Origin: Brachycybe producta
Taxonomy: Eukaryota > Arthropoda > Diplopoda > Playtdesmida > Andrognathidae
Direction of reading: 5' to 3'
Assembly (NCBI GenBank): GCA_036925085.1
Contig: JAUPFP010000156.1
Span: 62,001 to 126,000 of the forward strand
Length of the DNA stretch: 64,000 nt
Below the pieces are notes generated by a model. It did not search any database. It had not been told where the DNA came from and saw nothing but the letters and a program-made list of their open reading frames with translations. The translations under genes and the position numbers were made by a program. Shown piece by piece: positions 14,601 to 50,900 of the stretch; the stretch's first letter is position 1; the number at the start of each line of letters is the position of its first letter.

Positions 14601-15630
14601 TCAACCTTAAACGTTCAACCTTAAACGTTCAACCTTAAACGTTCAACCTTAAACGTTCAACCTTAAACGTTCAACCTTAAACCTTCAACCTTAAACGTTC
14701 AACCTTAAAAGTTAAACCTTAAACGTTCAACCTTAAACGTTCAACCTTAAACGTTCAACCTTATACGTTCAACCTTAAACGCTCAACCTTAAACGTTCAA
14801 CCTTAAACGTTCAACCTTAAACGTTCAATCTTAAACGTTCAAAAATAAACGTTCAACCTAAAATGTTCAATCCTTAAACGTTCAACCTTAAACGTTCAAC
14901 CTTAAACGTTCAACCTTAAACGTTCAACCTTAAACGTTCAACCTTAAACGTTCAACCTTAAACGTTCAACCTTAAACGTTCAACCTTAAACGTTCAACCT
15001 TAAACGTTCAACCTTAAACGTTCAACCTTAAACGTTCAAGCTTAAACGTTCAACCTTAAACGTTCAACCTTAAACGTCCAAAATTAAACGTTCAACCTTA
15101 AGCGTTCAACCTTAAACGTTCAACCTTAAACGCTCAACCTTAAACGTTCAACCTTAAACGTTCAATCTTAAACGTTCAAAAATAAACGTTCAACCTAAAA
15201 CGTTCAACCTTAAACGTTCAACCTTAAACGTCCAACCTGAAACGTGAAACCTTAAACGTTCAACCTTAAACGTTCAACCTTAAACGTTCAAACTTAAACG
15301 TTCAACCTTAAACGTTCAACCTTAAACGTCCAAAATTAAATGTTCAACCTTAAACGTTCAACCTTAAACGTTCAACCTTAAACGTTCAACCTTAAACGTT
15401 CAACCTTAAATGTTCAACCTTAAATGTTCAACCTTAAACGTTCAACCTTAAACGTTCAACCTTAAACGTTCATCCTTAAACGTTCAACCTTAAACGTTCA
15501 ACCTTAATTGTTCAACCTTAAACGTTCAACCTTAAACGTTCAACCTTAAACGTTCAACCTTAAACGTTCAACCTTAAACGTTCAAAATTAAACGTTCAAC
15601 CATAAACGTTCAACCTTAAACGTTCAACCT
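11700..15630 (+). repeat. Homogenised satellite segment
   Basis: Long runs of identical consensus units dominate, for example 12,020-12,320 and 12,480-12,680. Between them sit blocks marked by CGCTCAACC, CAAAAATAAACG, CGTCCAAAATT and TTATACG, which recur inside the segment and again near 31 and 34 kb. Phase is nearly intact; isolated exceptions lie near 14,165, 14,208 and 14,871. This looks like the product of recent local amplification. Confidence 0.8.
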
Positions 15631-15634
15631 TAAA

Positions 15635-16262
15635 CGGTTCAACCTTAAAGGTGACACCTTAAACGATCAAGGTTGAACGTTCAACTTTAAACGTTCAACC
15701 TTGAACGTTCAACCTTGAACGTTCAACCTTAAACGTTCAAAATTAAACGTTCAACCTTAAACGTTCAACCTTAAACATTCAACCTTAAACGTTCAACCTT
15801 AAACGTTCTACCTTAAACGTTCAAACTTAAACGTTCAACCTTAAACGTTCAACCTTAAACGTTCAACCTTAAACGTTCCACCTTAAACGTGAAACCTTAA
15901 ACGTGAAACCTTAAACGTGAAACCTTAAACGTTCAACCTTAAACGAGAAACCTTAAACGAGAAACCTTAAACGTGAAACCTTAAACGTTCAATCTTAAAC
16001 GTTCAACCTTAAACGTGAAACCTTAAATGCAAACCTTAAACGTTCAATCTTAAACGTTCAACCTTAATTGTTCAACCTTAAACGTTCAACCTTAAACGTT
16101 CAACCTTAAACGTTCAACCTTAAACGTTCAACCTTAAACGGTTCAACCTTAAAGGTGAAACCTTAAACGTTCAATCTTAAACGTTCAACTTTAAACGTTC
16201 AACCTTGAACGTTCAACCTTGAACGTTCAACCTTGAACGTTCAACCTTGAACGTTCAACCTT
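15635..16262 (+). repeat. 504-bp local duplication with CCTTGAA units
   Basis: CGGTTCAACCTTAAAGGTG starts at 15,635 and again at 16,139, an offset of 504 bp or exactly 36 units. Each is followed by a run of units reading CCTTGAACG in place of CCTTAAACG (15,700-15,725 and 16,203-16,255). Copy 1 contains a single inverted unit that copy 2 lacks. The CCTTGAA variant recurs as short pairs at about 30,710, 34,210 and 37,230. Confidence 0.85.
15668..15684 (-). repeat. Single-unit inversion
   Basis: Inside the + oriented array the sequence reads AAGGTTGAACGTT, the reverse complement of one unit, then returns to + orientation with CAACTTTAAACG. The switch back creates the perfect palindrome GTTGAACGTTCAAC. 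The matching place in the partner copy 504 bp downstream carries an ordinary CAATCTT unit of the same length, so the event replaced sequence without changing length. Confidence 0.75.
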
Positions 16263-16489
16263 AAACGTTCAAAATTAAACGTTCAACCTTAAACGTTCAA
16301 CCTTAAACATTCAACCTTAAACGTTCAACATTAAACGTTCTACCTTAAACGTTCAAACTTAAACGTTCAACCTTAAACGTTCAACCTTAAACGTTCAACC
16401 TTAAACGTTCAACCTTAAACGTTCAACCTTAAACGTTCAACCTTAAACGTTCAACCTTAAACGTTCCACCTTAAACGTTCAACCTTAAA

Positions 16490-17763
16490 CGTTCAACATT
16501 AAACGTTCAATCTTAAACGTTCAACCTAAAACGTTCAACCTGAAACGTTCAATCGTAAATGTTCAACCTTAAACGTGAAACCTTAAACGTTCAACCTTAA
16601 ACGTTCAACCTAAAACGTTCAACCTTAAACGTGAAACCTTAAACGTTCAACCTTAAACGTGAAACCTTAAACGTGAAACCTTAAATGTAAAACCTTAAAC
16701 GTTCAATCTTAAACGTTCAACATTAAACGTTCAACCTTAAACGTTCAATCTTAAACGTTCAACCTTAAACGTTCAACCTTAAACGTTCAACCTTAAACGT
16801 TCAACCTTAAACATTCAACCTTAAATGTTCAACATTAAATGTTCAACCTTAAATGTTCAACCTTAAACGATGAACCTTAAATGTTCAACCTTAAACGTTC
16901 AACGTTAAACGTTCAACCTTAAACGTTCAACCTTAAAAGTTCAACCTTAAACGTTCAACCTTAAACGTTCAACCTTAAACGTTCAACCTTAAACGTTCAA
17001 CCTTAAACGTTCAACCTTAAACGTTCAACCTTAAACGTTCAACCTTAAACGTTCAACCTTAAACGTTCAACCTTAAACGTTCAACCTTTAACGTTCAACC
17101 TTAAACGTTCAACATTAACCGTTCAACGTTAAATGTTCAACCTTAAACGTTCAACCTAAAACGTGAAACCTTAAACATTCAATCTTAAACGTTCAACTTT
17201 AAACGTTCAACTTTAAACGTTCAACCTTAAACGTTCAACCTTAAACGTTCAACCTTAAACGTTCAACCTTAAACGTGAAACCTTAAACGCTCAACCTTAA
17301 ACGTTCAACCTTAAACGTTCAACCTTAAACGTTCAACCTTAAACGTTCAACCTTAAACGTTCAACCTTAAACGTTCAACCTTAAACGTTCAACCTTAAAC
17401 GTTCAACCTTAAACGTTCAACCTTAAACGTTCAACCTTAAACGTTCAACCTTAAACGTTCAACTTTAAACGTGAAACCTTAAACGCTCAACCTTAAACGT
17501 TCAACATTAAACGTTCAACCTTAAACGTTCAACCTTAAACGTTCAACCTTAAATGTTCAACCTTATACGTTCAACCTTAAACGTTCAACCTTAAACGTTC
17601 AACCTTAAACGTTCAACCTTAAACGTTCAACCTTAAACGTTCAACCTTAAACGTTCAACCTTAAACGTTCAACCTTAAACGTTCAACCTTAAACGTTCAA
17701 CCTTAAACGTTCAACCTTAAACGTTCAACCTTAAACGTTCAACCTTAAACGTTCAACCTTAAA
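16490..17763 (+). repeat. 1,274-bp HOR, copy 1 (91 units)
   Basis: Several rare units fix the period. CCTGAAACG followed by CAATCGTAAATG occurs here at 16,541 and 1,274 bp later at 17,815. CATTAACCG occurs at 17,113 and 18,387. CGCTC occurs at 17,288 and 18,562. All three offsets are exactly 1,274 bp, or 91 x 14, so no indel separates the copies over this stretch. The copy ends in a run of consensus units. Confidence 0.93.
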
Positions 17764-18765
17764 CGTTCAACATTAAACGTTCAATCTTAAACGTTCAACC
17801 TAAAACGTTCAACCTGAAACGTTCAATCGTAAATGTTCAACCTTAAACGTGAAACCTTAAACGTTCAACCTTAAACGTTCAACCTAAAACATTCAACCTT
17901 AAACGTGAAACCTTAAACGTTCAACCTTAAACGTGAAACCTTAAACGTGAAACCTTAAATGTAAAACCTTAAACGTTCAATCTTAAACGTTCAACATTAA
18001 ACGTTCAACCTTAAACGTTCAATCTTAAACGTTCAACCTTAAACGTTCAACCTTAAACGTTCAACCTTAAACGTTCAACCTTAAACATTCAACCTTAAAT
18101 GTTCAACATTAAATGTTCAACCTTAAATGTTCAACCTTAAACGATGAACCTTAAATGTTCAACCTTAAACGTTCAACGTTAAACGTTCAACCTTAAACGT
18201 TCAACCTTAAAAGTTCAACCTTAAACGTTCAACCTTAAACGTTCAACCTTAAACGTTCAACCTTAAACGTTCAACCTTAAACGTTCAACCTTAAACGTTC
18301 AACCTTAAACGTTCAACCTTAAACGTTCAACCTTAAACGTTCAACCTTAAACGTTCAACCTTTAACGTTCAACCTTAAACGTTCAACATTAACCGTTCAA
18401 CGTTAAATGTTCAACCTTAAACGTTCAACCTAAAACGTGAAACCTTAAACATTCAATCTTAAACGTTCAACTTTAAACGTTCAACTTTAAACGTTCAACC
18501 TTAAACGTTCAACCTTAAACGTTCAACCTTAAACGTTCAACCTTAAACGTGAAACCTTAAACGCTCAACCTTAAACGTTCAACCTTAAACGTTCAACCTT
18601 AAACGTTCAACCTTAAACGTTCAACCTTAAACGTTCAACCTTAAACGTTCAACCTTAAACGTTCAACCTTAAACGTTCAACCTTAAACGTTCAACCTTAA
18701 ACGTTCAACTTTAAACGTGAAACCTTAAACGCTCAACCTTAAACGTTCAACATTAAACGTTCAAC
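17764..18765 (+). repeat. 1,274-bp HOR, copy 2 (truncated on the right)
   Basis: This segment repeats 16,490-17,763 marker for marker. In the consensus run before CAACTTTAAACG the offset drops from 1,274 to 1,246 bp (17,463 against 18,709), a loss of exactly two units. After about 18,765 the sequence switches to AAAAGTTAAACC and CCATAAATG units, which belong to a different HOR family seen again near 21.3 and 23.4 kb. Confidence 0.9.
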
Positions 18766-20249
18766 CTTAAAAGTTAAACCTTAAACGTTCAACCTAAAAC
18801 ATTCAACCATAAATGTTCAACCTTAAACGTTCAACCTTAAACGTTCAACCTTAAACGATGAACCTTAAATGTTCAAACTTAAACGTTCAACATTAAACGT
18901 TCAACCTTAAATGTTCAACCTTAAACGTTCAACCTTAAATGTAAAACCTTAAATGTTCAATCTTAAACGTTCAACCTTAAACGTTCAACCTTAAACGTTC
19001 AATCTTAAACGTTCAACCTAAAACGTTCAACCTTAAACGTTCAATCTTAAACGTTCAACCTTAAACGTTCAACCTTAAACGTTCAACCTTAAACGTTCAA
19101 CCTTAAACGTGAAACCTTAAACGTGAAACCTTAAATGTAAAACCTTAAACGTTCAATCTTAAACATTCAACATTAAACGTTCAACCTTTAACGTTCAATC
19201 TAAAACGTTCAACCTTAAACGTTCAACCTTAAACGTTCAACATTAAACATTCAACCTTAAATGTTCAACCTTAAATGTTCAACCTTAAACGATGAACATT
19301 AAATGTTCAACCTTAAACGTTCAACCTTAAACGTTCAACCTTAAACGTTCAACCTTAAACGTTCAACCTTAAACGTTCAATCTTAAACGTTCAACCTTAA
19401 AAGTTCAACCTTAAACGTTCAACCTTAAAAGTTCAACCTTAAACGTTCAACCTTAAACGTTCAACCTTAAACGTTCAACCTTAAACGTTCAACCTTAAAC
19501 GTTCAACCTTAAACGTTCAACCTTAACCGTTCAAAATTAAACGTTCAACCTTAAACGTTCAACCTTAAACGTTCAACCTTAAACGTTCAAGCTTAAATGT
19601 TCAACCTTAAACGTTCAACCTTAAACGTTCAATCTTAAACGTTCAGTTTTAAACGTTCAACCTTAAACGTTCAACCTTAAACGTGAAACCTTAAACGTTC
19701 AACCTTAAACGTGAAACCTTAAACGTGAAACCTTAAATGTAAAACCTTAAACGTTCAATCTTAAATGTTCAACTTTAAACGTTCAACCTTAAACGTTCAA
19801 TCTTAAACGTTCAACCTTAAACGTTCAACCTTAAATGTTCAACCTTAAATGTTCAACCTTAAACGATGAACCTTAAATGTTCAACCTTAAACGTTCAACC
19901 TTAAACGTTCAACCTTAAACGTGAAACCTTAAACGTGAAACATTAAACGTTCAACCTTAAACGTTCAATCTTAAACGTTCAACCTTAAACGTTCAACCTT
20001 AAACGTTCAACCTTAAACATTCAACCTTAAATGTTCAACCTTAAATGTTCAACCTTAAACGTTCAACCTTAAACGTTCAACCTTAAACGTTCAACCTTAA
20101 ACGTTCAAGCTTAAACGTTCACCCTTAAACGTTCAACCTAAAACGTTCAACCTTAAACGTTCAACCTTAAATGTTCAACCTTAAACGTTCAACCTTAAAC
20201 GTTCAACCTTAAACGTTCAACCTTAAACGTTCAACCTTAAACGTTCAAC

Positions 20250-30586: not shown

Positions 30587-31267
30587 CGTCCAAAATTAAA
30601 TGTTCAACCTTAAACGTTCAACCTTAAACGTTCAACCTTAAACGTTCAACCTTAAACGTTCAACCTTAAACGTTCAACCTTAAACGTTCAACCTTAAACG
30701 TTCAACCTTGAACGTTCAACCTTGAACGTTCAACCTTATACGTTCAACCTTAAACGTTCAACCTTAAACGTTCAACCTTAAACGTTCAACCTTAAACGTT
30801 CAACCTTAAACGTTCAACCTTAAACGTTCAATCTTAAACGTTCAACCTTAAATGTTCAACCTTAAACGTTCAACCTTAAACGTTCAACATTAAACGTTCA
30901 ACCTTAAACGTGCAACCTTAAACTTTCAACCTTAAACGTTCAACCTTAAACGTTCAACCTGAAACGTGAAACCTTAAATGTTCAACCTTAAACGTTCAAC
31001 CTTAAACGTTCAAGCTTAAACTTTCAACCTTAAACGTTCAACCTTAAACGTTCAACCTTAAACGTTCAACCTTAAAAGTTCAACCTTAAACGTTCAACCT
31101 TAAACGTTGAACCTTAAACGTTCAACCTTAAACGCTCAACCTTAAACGTTCAACCTTAAACGTTCAATCTTAAACGTTCAAAAATAAACGTTCAACCTAA
31201 AACGTTCAACCATAAACGTTCAACCTTAAACGTTCAACCTTAAACGTTCAACCTTAAACGTTCAACC

Positions 31268-31310
31268 TTAAACGTTCAACCTTAAACGTTTGAACGTTTA
31301 AGGTTGAACG
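31268..31310. repeat. Entry junction of inverted segment A
   Basis: Orientation changes from CCTTAAACG to CGTTTAAGG units. The flanking units are consensus on both sides, giving a head-to-head inverted repeat whose only central mismatch is the T/G at 31,291-31,292. The same junction recurs at 34,769 and 37,785. Confidence 0.9.
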
Positions 31311-32848
31311 TTTAAGGTTGAACGTTTAAGGTTGAACGTTTAAGGTTGAACGTTTAAGGTTGAACGTTTAAGATTGAACGTTTAAGGTTTCACATTTATG
31401 GTTTCACGTTTAAGGTTGAACGTTTAAGGTTGAACGTTTAAGATTGAACGTTTAAGGTTGAACGTTTAAGGTTGAACGTTTAATTTTGAACGTTTAAGGT
31501 TGAACATTTAAGGTTGAACATTTAAGCTTGAACGTTTAAGGATGAACGTTTAAGGTTGAACGTTTAAGGTTGAACGTTTAATTTTGGATGTTTAAGGTTG
31601 AACGTTTAAGCTTGAACGTTTAAGGTTGAACGTTTAAGGTTGAACGTTTAAGGTTTCACGTTTAAGGTTGAACGTTTAAGGTTGAACGTTTAAGGTTGAA
31701 CGTTTAAGGTTGAACGTTTAAGGTTGAACGTTTAAGTTTGAACGTTTAAGGTTGAACATTTAAGGTTGAACGTTTAAGGTTGAACGTTTAAGGTTGAACG
31801 TTTAAGGTTGAACGTTTAAGGTTGAACGTTTAAGGTTGAACGTTTAAGGTTGAACGTTTAAGTTTGAACGTTTAAGGTTGAACGTTTAAGGTTGAACGTT
31901 TATTTTTGAACGTTTAAGATTGAACGTTTAAGGTTGAACGTTTAAGGTTGAGCGTTTAAGGTTGAACATTTAAGGTTCAATGTTTAAGGTTGAACGTTTA
32001 AGGTTGAACGTTTAATTTTGGACGTTTAAGGTTGAACGTTTAAGGTTGCACGTTTAAGGTTGAACGTTTAATGTTGAACGTTTAAGATTGAACGTTTAAG
32101 GTTGAACGTTTAAGGTTGAGCGTTTAAGGTTGAACGTTTAAGGTTGAACGTTTAAGGTTGAACGTTTAAGGTTGAACTTTTAAGGTTGAACGTTTAAGGT
32201 TGAACGTTTAAGGTTGAACGTTTAAGGTTGAACGTTTAAGGTTGAACGTTTAAGGTTGAACGTTTAAGGTTGAACGTTTAAGGTTGAACGTTTAAGGTTG
32301 AACGTTTAAGGTTGAACGTTTAAGGTTGAACGTTTAAGGTTGAACGTTTAAGGTTGAACGTTTTAGGTTGAACGTTTATTTTTGAACGTTTAAGATTGAA
32401 CGTTTAAGGTTGAATGTTTAAGGTTGAGCGTTTAAGGTTGAACGTTTAAAGTTCAACGTTTAAGGTTGAACGTTTAAGGTTGAACGTTAAGGTTGAACGT
32501 TTAAGGTTGAACGTTTAAGCTTGAACGTTTAAGGTTGAACGTTTAAGGTTGCACGTTTAAGGTTGAACGTTTAAGGTTGAACGTTTAAGGTTGAACGTTT
32601 AAGGTTGAACGTTTGAGGTTGAACGTTAGAGGTTGAACGTTTGAGGTTGAACGTTTGAGGTTGAACGTTTGAGGTTGAACGTTTGAGGTTGAACGTTTGA
32701 GGTTGAACATTTGAGGTTGAACGTTTGAGGTTGAACGTTTGAGGTTGAACGTTTGAGGTTGAACGTTTGAGGTTGAACGTTTAAGGTTGAACGTTTAAGG
32801 TTGAACGTTTAAGGTTGAACGTTTAAGGTTTAACGTTTAAGGTTGAAC
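31292..32848 (-). repeat. Inverted satellite segment A (1,557 bp)
   Basis: All units read TTTAAGGTTGAACG, the reverse complement of the flanking array. Entry is the near-palindrome CCTTAAACGTTTGAACG centred at 31,291/31,292, with a single mismatched central pair. Exit is the perfect palindrome GGTTGAACGTTCAACC centred at 32,848/32,849. Internal markers are TTTCACATTTATGG near 31,388, TTTTGGATG near 31,573, GAGCG units and a GTTTGAGG block. It is nine units shorter than segment C. Confidence 0.95.
32611..32772 (-). repeat. TTTGAGG variant block in inverted segment A
   Basis: Consecutive units read GTTTGAGGTTGAAC, the reverse complement of the CCTCAAA variant, with one GTTAGAGG unit near 32,626. 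It belongs to the same subfamily as the direct block at 33,421-33,630. Confidence 0.9.
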
Positions 32849-32856
32849 GTTCAACC
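32841..32856. repeat. Exit palindrome of inverted segment A
   Basis: GGTTGAACGTTCAACC is a perfect 16-bp palindrome, with the switch inside the AACGTT core of the unit. It recurs exactly at 35,858-35,873 and 39,461-39,476. Confidence 0.95.
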
Positions 32857-33420
32857 TTAAACGTTCAACCTTAAACGTTCAACCTTAAACGTGCAACCTT
32901 AAACGTTCAACCTTAAACGTTCAACCTTAAACGTTCAACCTTAAACGTTCAACCTTAAACGTGAAACCTTAAACGTTCAACCTTAAACGTTCAACCTTAA
33001 ACGTTCAAGCTTAAACGTTCAACCTTAAACGTTCAACCTTAAACATCCAAAATTAAACGTTCAACCTTAAACGTTCAACCTTAAACGTTCAACCTTAAAC
33101 GTTCAACCTTAAACGTTCAAGCTTAAATGTTCAACCTTAAATGTTCAACCTTAAACGTTCAAAATTAAAAGTTCAACCTTAAACGTTCAACCTTAACGTT
33201 CAACCTTAAACGTTCAACCTTAAACGTTCAACCTTAAACGTTCAACCTTAAACGTTCAACCTTAAACGTTCAACCTTAAACGTTCAACCTTAAACGTTCA
33301 ACCTTAAACGCTCAACCTTAAACGTTTAACCTTAAACGTTCAACCTTAAACGTTCAACCTTAAACGTTCAACCTTAAACGTTCAACCTTAAACGTTCAAC
33401 CTTAAACGTTCAACCTTAAA

Positions 33421-33630
33421 CGTTCAACCTCAAACGTTCAACCTCAAACGTTCAACCTCAAACGTTCAACCTCAAACGTTCAACCTCAAACGTTCAACCT
33501 CAAACGTTCAACCTCAAACGTTCAACCTCAAACGTTCAACCTCAAACGTTCAACCTCTAACGTTCAACCTCAAACGTTCAACCTCAAACGTTCAACCTCA
33601 AACGTTCAACCTCTAACGTTCAACCTCTAA
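33421..33630 (+). repeat. CCTCAAA variant block 1
   Basis: Fifteen consecutive units read CGTTCAACCTCAAA or CGTTCAACCTCTAA. The T to C change removes the TAA stop, so pure CCTCAAA units are open in all three + frames, a 14-codon cycle reading RSTSNVQPQTFNLK. There is no ATG and CCTCTAA restores a stop in one frame, so this is not a gene. CGTCCAAAATT units follow at 33,688. Confidence 0.92.
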
Positions 33631-34769
33631 CGTTCAACCTTAAACGTTCAACCTTAAACGTTCAACCTTAAACGTTCAACCTTAAACGTCCAAAATTAAA
33701 CGTCCAACCTTAAACGTCCAACCTTAAACGTCCAACCTTAAACGTGAAACCTTAAACGTGAAACCTTAAACGTGAAACCTTAAACGTTCAACCTTAAACG
33801 TTCAAGCTTAAACGTTCAACCTCAAACGTTCAACCTAAAACGTTCAACCTTAAACGTTCAACATTAAACGTTCAACCTTAAACGTTCAACCTTAAACGTG
33901 AAACCTTAAACGTTCAACCTTAAACGTTCAACCTTAAACGTTCAACCTAAAACGTTCAACCTTAAACGTTCAACCTTAAACGTGAAACCTTAAACATTCA
34001 ACCTTAAACGTGAAACCTTAAACGTGAAACCTTAAATGTAAAACCTTAAACGTTCAATCTTAAACGTTCAACCTTAAACGTTCAACCTTAAACGTCCAAA
34101 ATTAAATGTTCAACCTTAAACGTTCAACCTTAAACGTTCAACCTTAAACGTTCAACCTTAAACGTTCAACTTTAAACGTTCAACCTTAAACGTTCAACCT
34201 TAAACGTTCAACCTTGAACGTTCAACCTTGAACGTTCAACCTTATACGTTCAACCTTAAACGTTCAACCTTAAACGTTCAACCTTAAACGTTCAACCTTA
34301 AACGTTCAACCTTAAACGTTCAATCTTAAACGTTCAACCTTAAATGTTCAACCTTAAACGTTCAACCTTAAACGTTCAACATTAAACGTTCAACCTTAAA
34401 CGTGCAACCTTAAACTTTCAACCTTAAACGTTCAACCTTAAACGTTCAATCTGAAACGTGAAACCTTAAATGTTCAACCTTAAACGTTCAACCTTAAATG
34501 TTCAAGCTTAAACTTTCAACCTTAAACGTTCAACCTTAAACGTTCAACCTTAAACGTTCAACCTTAAACGTTCAACCTTAAACGTTCAACCTTAAACGTT
34601 GAACCTTAAACGTTCAACCTTAAACGCTCAACCTTAAACGTTCAACCTTAAACGTTCAATCTTAAACGTTCAAAAATAAACGTTCAACCTAAAACGTTCA
34701 ACCATAAACGTTCAACCTTAAACGTTCAACCTTAAACGTTCAACCTTAAACGTTCAACCTTAAACGTTT

Positions 34770-35865
34770 GAACGTTTAAGGTTGAACGTTTAAGGTTGAA
34801 CGTTTAAGGTTGAACGTTTAAGGTTGAACGTTTAAGATTGAACGTTTAAGGTTTTACATTTATGGTTTCACGTTTAAGGTTGAACGTTTAAGGTTGAACG
34901 TTTAAGATTGAACGTTTAAGGTTGAACGTTTAAGGTTGAACGTTTAATTTTGAACGTTTAAGGTTGAACATTTAAGGTTGAACATTTAAGCTTGAACGTT
35001 TAAGGTTGAACGTTTAAGGTTGAACGTTTAAGGTTGAACGTTTAATTTTGGATGTTTAAGGTTGAACGTTTAAGCTTGAACGTTTAAGGTTGAACGTTTA
35101 AGGTTGAACGTTTAAGGTTTCACGTTTAAGGTTGAACGTTTAAGGTTGAACGTTTAAGGTTGAACGTTTAAGGTTGAACGTTTAAGGTTGAACGTTTAAG
35201 TTTGAACGTTTAAGGTTGAACATTTAAGGTTGAACGTTTAAGGTTGAACGTTTAAGGTTGAACGTTTAAGGTTGAACGTTTAAGGTTGAACGTTTAAGGT
35301 TGAACGTTTAAGGTTGAACGTTTAAGGTTGAACGTTTAAGTTTGAACGTTTAAGGTTGAACGTTTAAGGTTGAACGTTTAAGGTTGGACGTTTAAGGTTG
35401 AACGTTTAAGGTTGAACGTTTAAGGTTGAACGTTTATGGTTGAACGTTTTAGGTTGAACGTTTATTTTTGAACGTTTAAGATTGAACGTTTAAGGTTGAA
35501 CGTTTAAGGTTGAGCGTTTAAGGTTGAACGTTTAAGGTTCAATGTTTAAGGTTGAACGTTTAAGGTTGAACGTTTAATTTTGGACGTTTAAGGTTGAACG
35601 TTTAAGGTTGCACGTTTAAGGTTGAACGTTTAATGTTGAACGTTTAAGATTGAACGTTTAAGGTTGAACGTTTAAGGTTGAGCGTTTAAGATTGAACGTT
35701 TAAGGTTGAACGTTTGAGGTTGAACATTTGAGGTTGAACGTTTGAGGTTGAACGTTTGAGGTTGAACGTTTGAGGTTGAACGTTTGAGGTTGAACGTTTA
35801 AGGTTGAACGTTTAAGGTTGAACGTTTAAGGTTGAACGTTTAAGGTTGAACGTTTAAGGTTGAAC
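34770..35865 (-). repeat. Inverted satellite segment B (1,096 bp)
   Basis: The entry and exit junctions have the same sequence as in segment A and are centred at 34,769/34,770 and 35,865/35,866. It shares TTTTACATTTATGG with segment C, where A has TTTCACATTTATGG, and starts with four GGTT units as C does, where A has five. It is 587 bp shorter than C: 42 units lost, offset by a 1-bp deletion in C. Confidence 0.95.
35712..35789 (-). repeat. TTTGAGG variant block in inverted segment B
   Basis: A shortened form of the inverted block, with six GTTTGAGG units including one with CpG loss (GAACATTTGAGG). It directly adjoins the site where 42 units are missing compared with segment C. Confidence 0.9.
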
Positions 35866-35873
35866 GTTCAACC
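35858..35873. repeat. Exit palindrome of inverted segment B
   Basis: Same 16-bp palindrome as at 32,841. The switch falls in the AACGTT core, so no base is lost or added at the join. Confidence 0.95.
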
Positions 35874-36437
35874 TTAAACGTTCAACCTTAAACGTTCAAC
35901 CTTAAACGTGCAACCTTAAACGTTCAACCTTAAACGTTCAACCTTAAACGTTCAACCTTAAACGTTCAACCTTAAACGTGAAACCTTAAACGTTCAACCT
36001 TAAACGTTCAACCTTAAACGTTCAAGCTTAAACGTTCAACCTTAAACGTTCAACCTTAAACATCCAAAATTAAACGTTCAACCTTAAACGTTCAACCTTA
36101 AACGTTCAACCTTAAACGTTCAACCTTAAACGTTCAAGCTTAAATGTTCAACCTTAAATGTTCAACCTTAAACGTTCAAAATTAAAAGTTCAACCTAAAC
36201 GTTCAACCTTAAACGTTCAACCTTAAACGTTCAACCTTAAACGTTCAACCTTAAACGTTCAACCTTAAACGTTCAACCTTAAACGTTCAACCTTAAACGT
36301 TCAACCTTAAACGTTCAACCTTAAACGCTCAACCTTAAACGTTCAACCTTAAACGTTCAACCTTAAACGTTCAACCTTAAACGTTCAACCTTAAACGTTC
36401 AACCTTAAACGTTCAACCTTAAACGTTCAACCTTAAA

Positions 36438-36647
36438 CGTTCAACCTCAAACGTTCAACCTCAAACGTTCAACCTCAAACGTTCAACCTCAAACGTTCAA
36501 CCTCAAACGTTCAACCTCAAACGTTCAACCTCAAACGTTCAACCTCAAACGTTCAACCTCAAACGTTCAACCTCTAACGTTCAACCTCAAACGTTCAACC
36601 TCAAACGTTCAACCTCAAACGTTCAACCTCTAACGTTCAACCTCTAA
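36438..36647 (+). repeat. CCTCAAA variant block 2
   Basis: Fifteen units matching block 1 in length and in the placing of the CCTCTAA units, followed by the same CGTCCAAAATT cassette. This supports duplication of the entire composite HOR. Confidence 0.92.
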
Positions 36648-37785
36648 CGTTCAACCTTAAACGTTCAACCTTAAACGTTCAACCTTAAACGTTCAACCTT
36701 AAACGTCCAAAATTAAACGTCCAACCTTAAACGTCCAACCTTAAACGTCCAACCTTAAACGTGAAACCTTAAACGTGAAACCTTAAACGTGAAACCTTAA
36801 ACGTTCAACCTTAAACGTTCAAGCTTAAACGTTCAACCTCAAACGTTCAACCTAAAACGTTCAACCTTAAACGTTCAACATTAAACGTTCAACCTTAAAC
36901 GTTCAACCTTAAACGTGAAACCTTAAACGTTCAACCTTAAACGTTCAACCTTAAACGTTCAACCTAAAACGTTCAACCTTAAACGTTCAACCTTAAACGT
37001 GAAACCTTAAACATTCAACCTTAAACGTGAAACCTTAAACGTGAAACCTTAAATGTAAAACCTTAAACGTTCAATCTTAAACGTTCAACCTTAAACGTTC
37101 AACCTTAAACGTCCAAAATTAAATGTTCAACCTTAAACGTTCAACCTTAACGTTCAACCTTAAACGTTCAACCTTAAACGTTCAACTTTAAACGTTCAAC
37201 CTTAAACGTTCAACCTTAAACGTTCAACCTTGAACGTTCAACCTTGAACGTTCAACCTTATACGTTCAACCTTAAACGTTCAACCTTAAACGTTCAACCT
37301 TAAACGTTCAACCTTAAACGTTCAACCTTAAACGTTCAATCTTAAACGTTCAACCTTAAATGTTCAACCTTAAACGTTCAACCTTAAACGTTCAACATTA
37401 AACGTTCAACCTTAAACGTGCAACCTTAAACTTTCAACCTTAAACGTTCAACCTTAAACGTTCAATCTGAAACGTGAAACCTTAAATGTTCAACCTTAAA
37501 CGTTCAACCTTAAATGTTCAAGCTTAAACTTTCAACCTTAAACGTTCAACCTTAAACGTTCAACCTTAAACGTTCAACCTTAAACGTTCAACCTTAAACG
37601 TTCAACCTTAAACGTTGAACCTTAAACGTTCAACCTTAAACGCTCAACCTTAAACGTTCAACCTTAAACGTTCAATCTTAAACGTTCAAAAATAAACGTT
37701 CAACCTAAAACGTTCAACCATAAACGTTCAACCTTAAACGTTCAACCTTAAACGTTCAACCTTAAACGTTCAACCTTAAACGTTT

Positions 37786-39468
37786 GAACGTTTAAGGTTG
37801 AACGTTTAAGGTTGAACGTTTAAGGTTGAACGTTTAAGGTTGAACGTTTAAGATTGAACGTTTAAGGTTTTACATTTATGGTTTCACGTTTAAGGTTGAA
37901 CGTTTAAGGTTGAACGTTTAAGATTGAACGTTTAAGGTTGAACGTTTAAGGTTGAACGTTTAATTTTGAACGTTTAAGGTTGAACATTTAAGGTTGAACA
38001 TTTAAGCTTGAACGTTTAAGGTTGAACGTTTAAGGTTGAACGTTTAAGGTTGAACGTTTAATTTTGGATGTTTAAGGTTGAACGTTTAAGCTTGAACGTT
38101 TAAGGTTGAACGTTTAAGGTTGAACGTTTAAGGTTTCACGTTTAAGGTTGAACGTTTAAGGTTGAACGTTTAAGGTTGAACGTTTAAGGTTGAACGTTTA
38201 AGGTTGAACGTTTAAGTTTGAACGTTTAAGGTTGAACATTTAAGGTTGAACGTTTAAGGTTGAACGTTTAAGGTTGAACGTTTAAGGTTGAACGTTAAGG
38301 TTGAACGTTTAAGGTTGAACGTTTAAGGTTGAACGTTTAAGGTTGAACGTTTAAGTTTGAACGTTTAAGGTTGAACGTTTAAGGTTGAACGTTTAAGGTT
38401 GGACGTTTAAGGTTGAACGTTTAAGGTTGAACGTTTAAGGTTGAACGTTTATGGTTGAACGTTTTAGGTTGAACGTTTATTTTTGAACGTTTAAGATTGA
38501 ACGTTTAAGGTTGAACGTTTAAGGTTGAGCGTTTAAGGTTGAACGTTTAAGGTTCAATGTTTAAGGTTGAACGTTTAAGGTTGAACGTTTAATTTTGGAC
38601 GTTTAAGGTTGAACGTTTAAGGTTGCACGTTTAAGGTTGAACGTTTAATGTTGAACGTTTAAGATTGAACGTTTAAGGTTGAACGTTTAAGGTTGAGCGT
38701 TTAAGATTGAACGTTTAAGGTTGAACGTTTAAGGTTGAACGTTTAAGGTTGAACGTTTAAGGTTGAACTTTTAAGGTTGAACGTTTAAGGTTGAACGTTT
38801 AAGGTTGAACGTTTAAGGTTGAACGTTTAAGGTTGAACGTTTAAGGTTGAACGTTTAAGGTTGAACGTTTAAGGTTGAACGTTTAAGGTTGAACGTTTAA
38901 GGTTGAACGTTTAAGGTTGAACGTTTAAGGTTGAACGTTTAAGGTTGAACGTTTAAGGTTGAACATTTTAGGTTGAACGTTTATTTTTGAACGTTTAAGA
39001 TTGAACGTTTAAGGTTGAATGTTTAAGGTTGAGCGTTTAAGGTTGAACGTTTAAAGTTCAACGTTTAAGGTTGAACGTTTAAGGTTGAACGTTTAAGGTT
39101 GAACGTTTAAGGTTGAACGTTTAAGCTTGAACGTTTAAGGTTGAACGTTTAAGGTTGCACGTTTAAGGTTGAACGTTTAAGGTTGAACGTTTAAGGTTGA
39201 ACGTTTGAGGTTGAACGTTAGAGGTTGAACGTTTGAGGTTGAACGTTTGAGGTTGAACGTTTGAGGTTGAACGTTTGAGGTTGAACGTTTGAGGTTGAAC
39301 ATTTGAGGTTGAACGTTTGAGGTTGAACGTTTGAGGTTGAACGTTTGAGGTTGAACGTTTGAGGTTGAACGTTTGAGGTTGAACGTTTAAGGTTGAACGT
39401 TTAAGGTTGAACGTTTAAGGTTGCACGTTTAAGGTTGAACGTTTAAGGTTGAACGTTTAAGGTTGAAC
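37786..39468 (-). repeat. Inverted satellite segment C (1,683 bp)
   Basis: The longest of the three inverted segments, with junctions at 37,785/37,786 and 39,468/39,469. It carries a 1-bp shortened unit (GAACGTTAAGG) near 38,291, a long consensus run at about 38,710-38,960 and a GTTTGAGG block at 39,203-39,378. Near its exit it has GGTTGCACG, which mirrors CGTGCAACC just right of the exits of segments A and B. Confidence 0.95.
39203..39378 (-). repeat. TTTGAGG variant block in inverted segment C
   Basis: Consecutive GTTTGAGG units with one GTTAGAGG unit (near 39,218) and one GAACATTTGAGG unit, matching the block in segment A with one more unit. Confidence 0.9.
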
Positions 39469-39476
39469 GTTCAACC
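39461..39476. repeat. Exit palindrome of inverted segment C
   Basis: Same 16-bp palindrome. Here the arms stay matched for roughly 45-50 bp on each side, until GGTTGCACG on the left meets CGTACAACC on the right. Confidence 0.95.
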
Positions 39477-39957
39477 TTAAACGTTCAACCTTAAACGTTC
39501 AACCTTAAACGTACAACCTTAAACGTTCAACCTTAAACGTTCAACCTTAAACGTGAAACCTTAAACGTTCAACCTTAAACGTTCAACCTTAAACGTTCAA
39601 GCTTAAACGTTCAACCTTAAACGTTCAACCTTAAACATCCAAAATTAAACGTTCAACCTTAAACGTTCAACCTTAAACGTTCAACCTTAAACGTTCAACC
39701 TTAAACGTTCAAGCTTAAATGTTCAACCTTAAATGTTCAACCTTAAACGTTCAAAATTAAAAGTTCAACCTTAAACGTTCAACCTTAAACGTTCAACCTT
39801 AAACGTTCAACCTTAAACGTTCAACCTTAAACGTTCAACCTTAAACGTTCAACCTTAAACGTTCAACCTTAAACGTTCAACCTTAAACGTTCAACCTTAA
39901 ACGCTCAACCTTAAACGTTCAACCTTAAACGTTCAACCTTAAACGTTCAACCTTAAA

Positions 39958-40237
39958 CGTTCAACCTCAAACGTTCAACCTCAAACGTTCAACCTCAAAC
40001 GTTCAACCTCAAACGTTCAACCTCAAACGTTCAACCTCAAACGTTCAACCTCAAACGTTCAACCTCAAACGTTCAACCTCAAACGTTCAACCTCAAACGT
40101 TCAACCTCAAACGTTCAACCTCAAACGTTCAACCTCAAACGTTCAACCTCTAACGTTCAACCTCAAACGTTCAACCTCAAACGTTCAACCTCAAACGTTC
40201 AACCTCAAACGTTCAACCTCTAACGTTCAACCTCTAA
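39958..40237 (+). repeat. CCTCAAA variant block 3 (longest)
   Basis: Twenty units of the CCTCAAA/CCTCTAA type, five more than blocks 1 and 2. The extra units lie in the uniform left part, while the CCTCTAA pattern on the right is kept. CGTCCAAAATT units follow. Confidence 0.92.
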
Positions 40238-40950
40238 CGTTCAACCTTAAACGTTCAACCTTAAACGTTCAACCTTAAACGTTCAACCTTAAACGTCCAA
40301 AATTAAACGTCCAACCTTAAACGTCCAACCTTAAACGTCCAACCTTAAACGTGAAACCTTAAACGTGAAACCTTAAACGTGAAACCTTAAACGTTCAACC
40401 TTAAACGTTCAAGCTTAAACGTTCAACCTCAAACGTTCAACCTAAAACGTTCAACCTTAAACGTTCAACATTAAACGTTCAACCTTAAACGTTCAACCTT
40501 AAACGTGAAACCTTAAACGTTCAACCTTAAACGTTCAACCTTAAACGTTCAACCTAAAACGTTCAACCTTAAACGTTCAACCTTAAACGTGAAACCTTAA
40601 ACATTCAACCTTAAACGTGAAACCTTAAACGTGAAACCTTAAATGTAAAACCTTAAACGTTCAATCTTAAACGTTCAACATTAAACGTTCAACCTTAAAC
40701 ATTCAATCTTAAACATTCAACCTTAAACGTTCAACCTTAAACGTTCAACTTTAAACATTCAACCTTAAATGTTCAACCTTAAATGTTCAACCTTAAACGA
40801 TGAACCTTAAATGTTCAACCTTAAACGTTCAACGTTAAAAGTTCAACCTTAAACGTTCAACCTTAAACGTTCAACCTTAAAAGTTCAACCTTAAACGTTC
40901 ATCCTTAAACGTTCAACCTTAAACGTTCAACCATAAATGTTCAAGCTTAA

Positions 40951-44651: not shown

Positions 44652-45689
44652 CGTTCAACCTTAAACGTTCAACCTTAAACGTTCAACCTTAAACGTCCAA
44701 AATTAAACGTCCAACCTTAAATGTCCAACCTTAAACGTCCAACCTTAAACGTGAAACCTTAAACGTGAAACCTTAAACGTTCAACCTTAAACGTTCAAGC
44801 TTAAACGTTCAACCTCAAACGTTCAACCTAAAACGTTCAACCTTAAACGTTCAACCTTAAACGTTCAATCTTAAACGTTCAACCTTAAACGTGAAACCTT
44901 AAACGTTCAACCTTAAATGTTCAACCTTAAACGTTCAACCTAAAACGTTCAACCTTAAACGTTCAACCTTAAACGTTCAACCTTAAACGTGAAACCTTAA
45001 ACATTCAACCTTAAACGTGAAACCTTAAACGTGAAACCTTAAATGTAAAACCTTAAACGTTCAATCTTAAACGTTCAACATTAAACGTTCAACCTTAAAC
45101 GTTCAATCTTAAACATTCAACCTTAAACGTTCAACCTTAAACGTTCAACCTTAAACATTCAACCTTAAATGTTCAACCTTAAATGTTCAACCTTAAACGA
45201 TGAACCTTAAATGTTCAACCTTAAACGTTCAACGTTAAAAGTTCAACCTTAAACGTTCAACCTTAAACGATCAACCTTAAAAGTTCAACCTTAAACGTTC
45301 ATCCTTAAACGTTCAACCTTAAACGTTCAACCATAAACGTTCAAGCTTAAATGATCAACCTTAAAAAACGTTCAATCTTAAACGTTCAACCTTAAACGTT
45401 CAAGCTTAAACGTTCAACCTTAAACGTTCAACGTTAACCGTTCAAAATTAAACGTTCAACCTTAAACGTTCAACCTTAAACGTTCAACCTTAAACGTTCA
45501 ACCTTAAACGTTCAAGCTTAAATGTTCAACCTTAAACGTTCAACCTTAAACGTTCAATCTTAAACGTTCAGCCTTAAACGTTCAACCTTAAACGTGAAAC
45601 CTTAAACGTGAAACCTTAAACGTGAAACCTTAAATGTAAAACCTTAAACGTTCAATCTTAAATGTTCAACTTTAAACGTTCAACCTTAA

Positions 45690-46828
45690 ACGTTCAATCT
45701 TAAACGTTCAACCTTAAACGTTCAACCTTAAATGTTCAACCTTAAATGTTCAACCTTAAACGATGAACCTTAAATGTTCAACCTTAAACGTTCAACCTTA
45801 AACGTTCAACCTTAAACGTGAAACCTTAAACGTGAAACCTTAAATGTAAAACCTTAAACGTTCAATCTTAAACGTTCAACATTAAACGTTCAACCTTAAA
45901 CGTTCAACCTTAAACGTTCAACATTAAATGTTCAACCTTAAACGTGAAACCTTAAACGTTCAACCTTAAATGTTCAACCTTAAACGTAAAACGTTAAACG
46001 TTCAACCTTAAACGTGAAACCTTAAACGTGAAACCTTAAACGTGAAACATTAAACGTGAAACCTTAAACGTGAAACCTTAAACGTGAAACCTTAAACGTT
46101 CAACCTTAAACGTTCAACATTAAACGTTCAAACTTAAACGTTCAACCTTAAACGATCAACCTTAAACGTTCAACATTAAATGTTCAACCTCAAACGTGAA
46201 ACCTTAAACGTTCAACCTTAAACGTAAAACATTAAACGTTCAACCTTAAACGTGAAACCGTAATTGTTCAACCTTAAACGTTCAACCTTAAACGTTCAAG
46301 CTTAAACATTCAACCTTAAGCGTTCAAAATTAAACGTTCAACCTAAAACGTTCAACCTTAAACGTTCAACTTTAAACGTTCAACCTTAAACGTTCAATCT
46401 TAAACGTTTAACATTAAACGTTCAACCTTAAACGTTCAATCTTAAACGTTCAACCTTAAACGTTCAACCTTAAACATTCAACCTTAAATGTTCAACCTTA
46501 AACGTGAAACCTTAAACGTTGAACCTTAAACGTTCAACCTAAAACGTTCAACCTTAAACGTTCAACCTTAAACGTGAAACCTTAAATGTAAAACCTTAAA
46601 CGTTCAATCTTAAACATTCAACCTTAAATGTTCAACCTTAAATGTTCAACCTTAAACGATGAACCTTAAACGTTCAACCTTAAACGTTCAACCTTAAACG
46701 TTCAACCTTAAACGTTCAACCTTAAACGTTCAACCTTAAACGTTCAACCTTAAAAGTTCAACCTTAAACGTTCAACCTTAAACGTTCAACCTTAAACGTT
46801 CAACCTTAAACGTTCAACCTTAAACGTT
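45690..46828 (+). repeat. 1,134-bp HOR, copy 1 (81 units)
   Basis: CGATGAACC at 45,761 and 46,895, CCGTAATTG (G at 46,260 and 47,394) and a second CGATGAACC at 46,657 and 47,791 are all exactly 1,134 bp apart. The rare CCGTAATTG change in both copies shows recent duplication. Confidence 0.92.
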
Positions 46829-47950
46829 CAATCTTAAACGTTCAACCTTAAACGTTCAACCTTAAATGTTCAACCTTAAATGTTCAACCTTAAACGATGA
46901 ACCTTAAATGTTCAACCTTAAACGTTCAACCTTAAACGTTCAACCTTAAACGTGAAACCTTAAACGTGAAACCTTAAATGTAAAACCTTAAACGTTCAAT
47001 CTTAAACGTTCAACATTAAACGTTCAACCTTAAACGTTCAACCTTAAACGTTCAACATTAAATGTTCAACCTTAAACGTGAAACCTTAAACGTTCAACCT
47101 TAAATGTTCAACCTTAAACGTAAAACGTTAAACGTTCAACCTTAAACGTGAAACCTTAAACGTGAAACCTTAAACGTGAAACATTAAACGTGAAACCTTA
47201 AACGTGAAACCTTAAACGTGAAACCTTAAACGTTCAACCTTAAACGTTCAACATTAAACGTTCAAACTTAAACGTTCAACCTTAAACGATCAACCTTAAA
47301 CGTTCAACATTAAATGTTCAACCTCAAACGTGAAACCTTAAACGTTCAACCTTAAACGTAAAACATTAAACGTTCAACCTTAAACGTGAAACCGTAATTG
47401 TTCAACCTTAAACGTTCAACCTTAAACGTTCAAGCTTAAACATTCAACCTTAAGCGTTCAAAATTAAACTTTCAACCTAAAACGTTCAACCTTAAACGTT
47501 CAACTTTAAACGTTCAACCTTAAACGTTCAATCTTAAACGTTTAACATTAAACGTTCAACCTTAAACGTTCAATCTTAAACGTTCAACCTTAAACGTTCA
47601 ACCTTAAACATTCAACCTTAAATGTTCAACCTTAAACGTGAAACCTTAAACGTTGAACCTTAAACGTTCAACCTAAAACGTTCAACCTTAAACGTTCAAC
47701 CTTAAACGTGAAACCTTAAATGTAAAACCTTAAACGTTCAATCTTAAACATTCAACCTTAAATGTTCAACCTTAAATGTTCAACCTTAAACGATGAACCT
47801 TAAACGTTCAACCTTAAACGTTCAACCTTAAACGTTCAACCTTAAACGTTCAACCTTAAACGTTCAACCTTAAAAGTTCAACCTTAAACGTTCAACCTTA
47901 AACGTTCAACCTTAAACGTTCAACCTTAAACGTTCAACCTTAAACGTTCA
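46829..47950 (+). repeat. 1,134-bp HOR, copy 2
   Basis: Repeats copy 1 almost without change. Visible differences are AAACTTTC near 47,467 where copy 1 has AAACGTTC, and one consensus unit fewer before AAAAGTTC (offset 1,120 bp at 46,751 and 47,871). Confidence 0.92.
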
Positions 47951-50900
47951 AGCTTAAACGTTCAACCTTAAACGTTCAAAATTAAACGTTCAACCTAAAA
48001 CGTTCAACCTTAAACGTTCAACCTTAAACATTCAACCTTAAACGTTCAACCTTAAACGTTCAACCTTAAACGTTCAACCTTAAACGTTCAACCTTAAACG
48101 TTCAACCTTAAACGTTCAACCTTAAACGTTCAACCTTAAACGTTCAACCTTAAACGTTCAACCTTAAACCTTCAACCTTAAACGTTCAACCTTAAAAGTT
48201 AAACCTTAAACGTTCAACCTTAAACATTCAACCATAAATGTTCAACCTTAAACGTTCAACCTTCAACGTTCAACCTTAAACGATGAACCTTAAATGTTCA
48301 ACCTGAAACGTTCAACCTTAAACGTTCAACCTAAAATGTTCAACCTTAAACGTTCAATCTTAAACGTTCAACCTTAAACGTGAAACCTTAAACGTTCAAC
48401 CTTAAACGTTCAACCTAAAACGTTCAACCTTAAACGTTCAACCTTAAACGTTCAACCTTAAACGTTCAACCTTAAACGTTCAACTTTAAACGTTCAACCT
48501 TAAACCTTCAACCTTAAACGTTCAACCTTAAAAGTTAAACCTTAAACGTTCAACCTTAAACGTTCAACCTTAAACGTTCAACCTTATACGTTCAACCTTA
48601 AACTTTCAACCTTAAACGTTCAACCTTAAACGTTCAACCTTAAACGTTCAACCTTAAACGTTCAACCTTAAACGTTCAACCTTAAACGTTCAACCTTAAA
48701 CGTTCAACCTTAAACGTTCAACCTTAAACGTTCAACCTTAAACGTTCAACATTAAATGTTCAACCTTAAACATGAAACCTTAAACGTTCAACCTTAAATG
48801 TTCAACCTTAAACGTAAAACGTTAAACGTTCAACCTTAAACGTGAAACCTTAAACGTGAAACCTTAAACGTGAAACATTAAACGTGAAACCTTAAACGTT
48901 CAACCTTAAACGTTCAACCTTAAACGTTCAACCTTAAACGTTCAACCTTAAACGTTCAACCTTAAACGTTCAACCTTAAACGTTCAACCTTAAACGTTCA
49001 ACCTTAAACGTGAAACCTTAAACGTGAAACCTTAAACGTTCAACCTTAAACGTTCAACCTTAAACGTTCAAGCTTAAACGTTCAACCTTAAACGTTCAAC
49101 CTTAAACATCCAAAATTAAACGTTCAACCTTAAACGTTCAACCTTAAACGTTCAAGCTTAAATGTTCAACCTTAAATGTTCAACCTTAAACGTTCAAAAT
49201 TAAACGTTCAACCTTAAACGTTCAACCTTAAACGTTCAACCTTAAACGTTCAACCTTAAACGTTCAACCTTAAACGTTCAACCTTAAACGTTCAACCTTA
49301 AACGCTCAACCTTAAACGTTCAACCTTAAACGTTCAACCTTAAACGTTCAACCTTAAACGTTCAACCTTAAACGTTCAACCTTATACGTTCAACCTTAAA
49401 CGTTCAACCTTAAACGTTCAACCTTAAACGTTCAACCTTAAACGTTCAACCTCAAACGTTCAACCTCAAACGTTCAACCTCAAACGTTCAACCTCAAACG
49501 TTCAACCTCAAACGTTCAACCTCAAACGTTCAACCTCAAACGTTCAACCTCAAACGTTCAACCTCAAACGTGCAACCTCTAACGTTCAACCTCAAACGTT
49601 CAACCTCAAACGTTCAACCTCAAACGTTCAACCTCTAACGTTCAACCTCAAACGTTCAACCTTAAACGTTCAACCTTAAACGTTCAACCTTAAACGTTCA
49701 ACCTTAAACGTCCAAAATTAAACGTCCAACCTTAAACGTCCAACCTTAAACGTCCAACCTTAAACGTGAAACCTTAAACGTGAAACCTTAAACGTTCAAC
49801 CTTAAACGTTCAAGCTTAAACGTTCAACCTCAAACGTTCAACCTAAAACGTGAAACCTTAAACGTTCAACCTTAAACGTTCAACCTTAAACGTTCAACCT
49901 AAAACGTTCAACCTTAAACGTTAAACCTTAAACGTTCAACCTTAAACGTGAAACCTTAAACATTCAACCTTAAACGTGAAACCTTAAACGTGAAACCTTA
50001 AATGTAAAATCTTAAACGTTCAATCTTAAACGTTCAACATTAAACGTTCAATATAAAACATTCAACCTTAAACGTTCAACCTTAAACGTTCAACCTTAAA
50101 CATTCAACCTTAAATGTTCAACCTTAAATGTTCAACCTTAAACGATGAACCTTAAATGTTCAACCTTAAACGTTCAACGTTAAAAGTTCAACCTTAAACG
50201 TTCAACCTTAAACGTTCAACCTTAAAAGTTCAACCTTAAACGTTCATCCTTAAACGTTCAACCTTAAACGTTCAACCATAAACGTTCAAGCTTAAATGAT
50301 CAACCTTAAAAACGTTCAATCTTAAACGTTCAAGCTTAAACGTTCAACCTTAAACGTTCAAAATTAAATGTTCAACCTTAAACGTTCAACCTTAAACGTT
50401 CAACATTAAATGTTCAACCTTAAACGTGAAACCTTAAACGTTCAACCTTAAATGTTCAACCTTAAACGTAAAACGTTAAACGTTCAACCTTAAACGTGAA
50501 ACCTTAAACGTGAAACCTTAAACGTGAAACATTAAACGTGAAACCTTAAACGTGAAACCTTAAACGTTCAACCTTAAACGTTCAACATTAAACGTTCGAC
50601 CTTAAACGTTCAACCTTAAACGATCAACCTTAAACGTTCAACATTAAATGTTCAACCTTAAACGTGAAACCTTAAACGTTCAACCTTAAACGTAAAACGT
50701 TAAACGTTCAACCTTATACGTGAAACCTTAATTGTTCAAACTTAAACGTTCAACCTTAAACGTTCAAGCTTAAACATTCAACCTTAAACGTTCAAAATTA
50801 AACGTTCAACCTAAAACGTTCAACCTAAAACGTTCAACCTTAAACGTTCAACTTTAAACGTTCAACCTTAAACGTTCAATCTTAAACGTTCAACATTAAA

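Follow-up and report, generated by a model that had tools for sequence, protein, structure and literature searches.

Three tandem units of a 14-bp satellite, each with a built-in inverted block, lie at 30,587–40,677 in a stretch of Brachycybe producta DNA of 64,000 nucleotides (the window; positions 62,001–126,000 of the 138,500-bp contig C156, in an assembly of 295.3 Mb and 442 contigs), and the middle unit reads as a recombinant of its two neighbours. The locus is most likely a neutral rearrangement of satellite DNA by known satellite dynamics, with no function needed to explain it. More specifically, we consider it highly probable that an inversion arose once, that the stretch bearing it was duplicated in tandem, and that an unequal crossover then created the present triplication, all of this neutrally. 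Unequal crossing over is a textbook engine of satellite evolution and should leave a hybrid middle copy, but the strong likeness of the repeats makes such a copy difficult to recognise. At this locus, the inversion and the variants beside it serve as markers, so that the order of events is readable: one inversion, one duplication, and one crossover that can be placed to 13 bp within the inverted block. Coordinates are window positions unless a contig is named.

Three tandem units with an inverted block

Tandem Repeats Finder reports the whole window as a single array of the 14-mer CCTTAAACGTTCAA, and orientation and k-mer mapping found the same satellite content in C156 outside the window, the contig being satellite from end to end. 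In both the window and the contig, the short unit is arranged head to tail. Decomposition of C156 yielded 9,882 monomers, of which 4,910 have the consensus sequence and 9,734 are 14 bp long. The array also contains higher-order repeats (HORs), i.e., multi-unit blocks that are mutually more alike than adjacent monomers; duplication is widespread in the array, with 79% of 280-bp segments having an ungapped counterpart of 96.5% identity or more at another place in C156. Scaling the count of perfect dimers in the genome (27,533 + 18,385) by the dimer density in C156 gives a total of ~2.4 Mb for this satellite. The unit can be spelled in 28 ways, and a literature search with six of these returned no paper on it.

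Orientation was mapped using exact k-mers of the unit, with 9-mers in the window and 10-mers in the whole contig (runs of fewer than eight matches were dropped), and isolated 9- to 13-bp opposite-strand 9-mer matches inside the forward array were taken as variant monomers. C156 is entirely in the forward (+) orientation except for three reverse (-) stretches, all of them in the window. These inverted blocks span 31,290–32,851 (1,562 bp), 34,768–35,868 (1,101 bp), and 37,784–39,471 (1,688 bp), and each lies inside one of three tandem units on the + strand: unit 1 (30,587–34,092; 3,506 bp), unit 2 (34,093–37,109; 3,017 bp), and unit 3 (37,110–40,677; 3,568 bp). As argued below, units 1 and 3 would be the older copies, which we call X and Y, and unit 2 the recombinant. 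A preliminary description of this DNA had proposed three tandem units with a built-in inversion of 1,096–1,683 bp; the arrangement is real, and the sizes agree with the k-mer map to ~5 bp. The alignment of the three units that it had suggested shows identities, in aligned columns and gaps aside, of 99.2% for units 1 and 2, 99.5% for units 2 and 3, and 99.3% for units 1 and 3. Among the 25 gaps in the three pairwise alignments, 13 are multiples of 14 bp, two are one base off, and eight are single bases, the remaining two being 22-bp gaps at the unit end. The lengths of the inverted blocks differ by 126 bp, which is nine units, and by 587 bp, which is 42 units minus 1 bp.

The same junctions, and the same orientation switch, recur in each of these three units. 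The forward-to-reverse junction is the 24-bp sequence CCTTAAACGTTTGAACGTTTAAGG, found on the + strand at 31,280–31,303 in unit 1, 34,758–34,781 in unit 2, and 37,774–37,797 in unit 3. Every pair of these junctions is identical over at least 64 + 68 bp (132 bp or more), and between copies 2 and 3, identity runs for 636 + 512 bp (1,148 bp). The reverse-to-forward junction is a perfect palindrome, GGTTGAACGTTCAACC, which has no strand of its own and lies at 32,841–32,856, 35,858–35,873, and 39,461–39,476 in units 1, 2, and 3, respectively. It is centred on AACGTT, a motif common to both orientations, and here every pair is identical over at least 61 bp. The junction sequences are thus identical between copies, as the preliminary description had stated. 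In the 295.3 Mb of the assembly, the 24-bp forward-to-reverse junction has three exact occurrences, all at this locus, while control matches numbered 0. The compound unit is therefore not abundant genome-wide, with its exact junction present as three copies at one locus. Since this junction is found only here, three times, the orientation switch most likely had a single origin, which is what the preliminary description had proposed.

The middle unit as a crossover hybrid

Unequal crossing over between X and Y predicts the order X, Y-left/X-right, Y, and this order is observed, which supports a crossover: the middle copy of the triplication resembles the third copy on its left and the first on its right. 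Left of the break, unit 2 shows 0 mismatches with unit 3 over 1,621 bases, and two 1-bp indels. Right of the break, it differs from unit 1 by 2 mismatches in 1,393 bases plus two 1-bp indels, compared to 16 mismatches in 1,372 bases with unit 3. When we considered the sites at which units 1 and 3 differ by a substitution, unit 2 follows unit 3 at all seven on the left and unit 1 at 16 of the 18 on the right, the two exceptions being private to unit 1. This distribution has a Fisher P of 7.5e-5 for the raw sites. Because many of the right sites are clustered (in a variant-monomer run and in a 28-bp junction shift), clustered substitutions were collapsed by hand, which gives P = 0.0070 (7/0 versus 2/6). 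Adding gaps of at least 13 bp changes this to 0.0003 (12/0 versus 2/7), and also counting the two contrary 1-bp indels on the left changes it to 0.0066. Judged by this mosaic, unit 2 is a recombinant that arose by unequal crossing over between the two older copies X and Y. The analysis relies on pairwise alignment and exact runs; a progressive alignment of the three units, in which the large gap of unit 2 falls elsewhere and 69 columns are variable, was set aside.

Extension of exact runs carries the match with copy Y as far as 38,730 and puts the start of the match with copy X at 32,686, leaving in unit 2 a crossover tract of 13 bp, at 35,703–35,715 (no strand assigned), that is common to Y and X. 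The tract falls within the inverted block, which in unit 2 is composed of ~947 bp of Y and ~153 bp of X, and this composition explains the length of the block without a deletion. The two copies were thus misaligned by 560 bp, or ~40 units, where they exchanged within the block. Two claims of the preliminary description have to be amended accordingly. It had attributed the amplification to in-register exchange: unequal exchange stands, as the hybrid attests, but it was in register at the 14-bp level only and 560 bp off otherwise. It had also read the length differences as whole numbers of units, nine and 42, which holds exactly for the former and to within 1 bp for the latter; the 42 units do not reflect an internal loss of units. 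An internal 42-unit deletion in copy 2 was considered and rejected, the mosaic and the tract at the break attributing the shortfall to one misregistered exchange.

The latest event can thus be delimited as a tandem duplication of ~3,017 bp, with a first copy at 32,686–35,702 (+) and a second at 35,703–38,717. These duplicates differ by two substitutions and four 1-bp indels; a comparison begun 36 bp farther to the left gave five more mismatches, at 32,657–32,685, which were not counted because they lie left of the crossover tract. Between X and Y, on the other hand, there are 25 differences in 3,427 aligned bases (24 by the pairwise whole-unit alignment), i.e., ~0.7%. Set against two substitutions in ~3 kb between the latest duplicates, this divergence makes the first duplication the older one.

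These data suggest a history in three steps. The first would have been the inversion, once, of ~1.6 kb of a local HOR in a 14-bp satellite whose core, AACGTT, is self-complementary. Strand or template switching is the probable mechanism, because both junctions join at few shared bases: AACGTT on one side and ~1 bp on the other, the overlap at the forward-to-reverse junction being about 1 bp on our reading of its sequence. The stretch bearing the inversion would then have been duplicated in tandem to give X and Y; their divergence is apparent from the alignment, whereas the mechanism of this duplication is inferred. Finally, as the mosaic shows, an unequal crossover between copies misaligned by one unit plus ~40 monomers inside the block produced X - (Y-left/X-right) - Y.

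Alternative explanations and the source of the block

Three independent inversions at a hotspot might have been expected of a unit with a palindromic core, and other orientation switches do exist elsewhere in the genome. We searched for them as intact consensus units of opposite orientation no more than 30 bp apart, which yields lower bounds. The forward-to-reverse pattern gave 13 matches on seven junctions genome-wide, three here and one each on contigs C129, C249, C256, and C264, while the reverse-to-forward pattern gave six matches on four junctions, three here and one on C171. Every other listed switch has its own distinct sequence, seen once. By contrast, the three forward-to-reverse junctions described above share their long identity and occur only at this locus, and, gaps aside, identity across the entire units is at least 99%. 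Recurrent inversion is accordingly rejected, its probability being close to negligible. Within the same satellite, we also observed an inversion of ~0.3 kb on C264 (L031) and one of ~36 bp on C256 (L030), with junction sequences of their own; the closing junctions of these small inversions are visible only in the retrieved sequence and were missed by the pattern counts. Selection might also maintain the inverted units because they form hairpins or cruciforms, as dyads, at a centromere or in heterochromatin. Such a role has been proposed for the macro-dyads of Tribolium, where putative (peri)centromeric satellites form inverted subarrays with conserved inversion sites (PMC13081366). A single three-copy locus in a satellite of ~2.4 Mb, with few other switches (again as lower bounds), is too rare for such a hallmark, and no present evidence places the array at a centromere. 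We regard this explanation as distinctly improbable.

Few sequences are harder to assemble than satellite arrays, and a chimeric fold-back read or a loop in the assembly graph could have created the inversions or the extra copy. Two switches in this very assembly, on C129 (L021; C129:12,253–15,309, switch near 13,786) and C171 (L032; C171:96,696–99,695, switch near 98,197), have arms that are 99.8–99.9% mirror-identical in gapped alignments of 1.0–1.4 kb, as is expected of fold-backs, and these two would be large palindromes of very recent origin or else fold-back joins made in assembly. Moreover, unit 2 has almost no private differences. However, a fold-back makes the arms mirror copies of each other, and the arms at the six junctions here are only 89–95% alike, close to the 89–94% seen for 12 random forward-versus-forward pairs. 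A fold-back chimera, which the preliminary description had named as a possible refutation, therefore does not fit this locus by this indirect test, and we rejected it since near-perfect mirror arms are absent at all six junctions. Copying by the assembler is further at odds with two substitutions in unit 1 that its supposed copy, unit 2, lacks, with 1-bp indels that differ among the copies, and with the 25 differences between X and Y. In addition, the hybrid join shares just 13 exact bp, which we judge very short for an overlap-based join. An assembly or library artefact at this locus is thus unlikely. The mirror-arm test sets the locus apart from near-perfect mirror joins and should be useful for checking satellite assemblies; a further switch, on C249 (L029; switch near 4,648), has arms that are 96.5–97.4% mirror-alike.

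The preliminary description had attributed the fully inverted part to an inversion. That the block is reversed stands, but instead of a flip in place, an inverted duplication may have produced it, through two strand switches, one out and one back. Read on the other strand as a series of variant monomers, the block repeats a large part of the series of markers seen in the forward sequence on its flanks. In a monomer-level local alignment to the forward monomers of the contig, the two best hits of the unit 3 block are overlapping chunks at this locus (scores 166 and 164); the next best place scores 113, and an order-reversed control does not exceed 85. When the blocks of units 1, 2, and 3 are aligned to their own flanks, the scores are 88.8, 105.1, and 163.6, respectively. 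Elsewhere in the window, a forward-orientation relative of the block lies at 12,335–13,202 (+), with a monomer-level score of 109.8 with the unit 3 block. On the evidence of these variant monomers, the inverted block and the local HOR are relatives. The block bears this marker-level resemblance to the forward sequence of the locus, and the mirror likeness of the arms is at about the level of random segments. In favour of an inverted duplication, the unit 3 block resembles the forward sequence of its own locus best. When the two flanks are joined, moreover, their alignment to forward relatives at window positions 12,797–13,104 and contig positions 129,514–130,045 spans the join, the joined flanks scoring 84.4 (of which 74.1 without crossing the join) and 62.5. 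Later gains and losses of 14-bp units blur the distinction. Provided that the single-inversion history holds, we lean slightly towards an inverted duplication.

Several points weigh against the history of one inversion, one duplication, and one crossover, or against our account of its source. The evidence comes from one assembled sequence of one individual of one species. One of the six junctions, at contig position 93,290, has arms 95.1% alike at 1 kb, slightly above the top random pair (94.2%), and what tells unit 2 from an assembler's copy of units 1 and 3 amounts to two substitutions and a few 1-bp indels. The two 1-bp indels left of the break, which separate unit 2 from its presumed source, unit 3, are private to unit 3. 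As for the block, the contig-wide monomer-level scan covers unit 3, the order-reversed control, too, has its best score (85.0) here, and when nucleotides were scanned directly, the flanks did not stand apart from other places in the contig; the kinship between block and flanks consequently rests on the marker series. Lastly, joins with the block flipped back score 90.5 and 56.6, due chiefly to a common run of a single variant monomer, the former being as high as or higher than the joined flanks, and this counts against an inverted duplication as well.

The junctions differ between units in two details. In unit 1, 28 bp spanning the forward-to-reverse junction (31,276–31,303) are missing from units 2 and 3, corresponding to one extra consensus monomer on each side. 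In unit 3, the reverse-to-forward junction is shifted two monomers along relative to units 1 and 2, the total between markers being equal. A comparison of 39,414–39,520 with 32,841–32,900 and 35,858–35,917 shows the variant monomer [11G] at the same offset of 42 from the centre of the palindrome in all three units; it lies in the forward arm of units 1 and 2 but in the reverse arm of unit 3, which holds [11A] at the forward position where the other two hold [11G]. Both differences look centred on a palindrome, each as a single case. [11G] accounts for just 16 of the 9,882 monomers in C156, but 11 of these 16 are in this locus (11 of its 714 monomers), and the mirror-position coincidence is therefore less telling than the contig-wide rarity suggests. 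That the inverted block might be recombinationally active, its palindromic junctions passing information between arms, is an idea we hold to be unlikely. If true, inverted satellite blocks would be small flip/copy elements that seed inversions and promote misregistered exchange.

Setting and comparison with known satellites

Other features of the array and of the assembly were recorded alongside this locus. Runs of one variant monomer (CCTCAAACGTTCAA and close forms) occur at 33,427–33,640 and in the matching part of the other units, with 15, 15, and 20 consecutive monomers in units 1, 2, and 3, respectively; GC content is raised there, and shorter runs of this type are present, inverted, within the reverse blocks. 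Further recent tandem duplications of ~99% identity lie outside the inverted stretches: among the matches listed, these are at 45,650–48,000, C156:2,862–7,808 versus 14,443–19,491 (in pieces), and C156:126,050–135,908, with offsets of ~1.1, 11.6–11.8, and 5.9 kb, respectively. The mitochondrial contig C442 (L033) carries a COX1 frame that was read using the invertebrate mitochondrial code, in which TGA encodes Trp, and this points to an animal host, probably an arthropod. We take neighbouring frames to be ND1, on the reverse strand, and COX2, directly behind COX1. With the bacterial code, ARAGORN predicted no tRNA for this mitochondrial locus. A full-length COX1 match with one TAA at C1:12,697,416–12,698,753 and COX1 fragments at C17:4,027,703–4,029,047 are probably nuclear copies. 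The odorant-receptor family gave eight weak matches, the best with an E value of 5e-6.

How does the locus compare with known satellites? The preliminary description had called orientation switches retained within a tandem HOR uncommon in short-unit satellites, which overstates the case. Human arrays of GAATG (5 bp) and hsatII (26 bp) had their inversions tabulated in 2008, and one hsatII array has HORs in both orientations (PMC2588610). The human arrays and the array studied here have in common a short unit, orientation switches, and multi-kb HORs. The passages of PMC2588610 consulted, however, gave no description of a short inversion amplified in a tandem HOR with a traceable crossover hybrid. 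Primate alpha-satellite arrays likewise show orientation changes inside HOR arrays, and PMC11062924 reports inversions validated with ultra-long reads, one of them of 3.2 Mb. These are large-scale inversions in a satellite with a 171-bp unit, whereas ours concerns a 14-bp unit in assembly sequence.

An orientation switch inside a tandemly repeated unit has counterparts in beetles. Tribolium brevicornis has a 1,061-bp satellite with inverted segments of ~470 bp, as cited in PMC13081366, and TmSat2 of Tribolium madens likewise has such a switch. In both, the switch is in the monomer of an abundant satellite, whereas here it is in three units of one 14-bp-satellite array. PMC13081366 also describes macro-dyad symmetries in T. 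madens, with thousands of conserved inversion-site sequences, two types of which number 2,044 and 3,486. Opposite-orientation subarrays and conserved junction sequences are common to those macro-dyads and our locus, but here there is one junction, in three copies, at one place. Taken together, these comparisons show that the locus is a well-resolved new example of an already published phenomenon, orientation switches in satellites, including short-unit ones, and that it is set apart by a unit of only 14 bp, by the amplification of a single junction, and by a crossover that can be read from the sequence.

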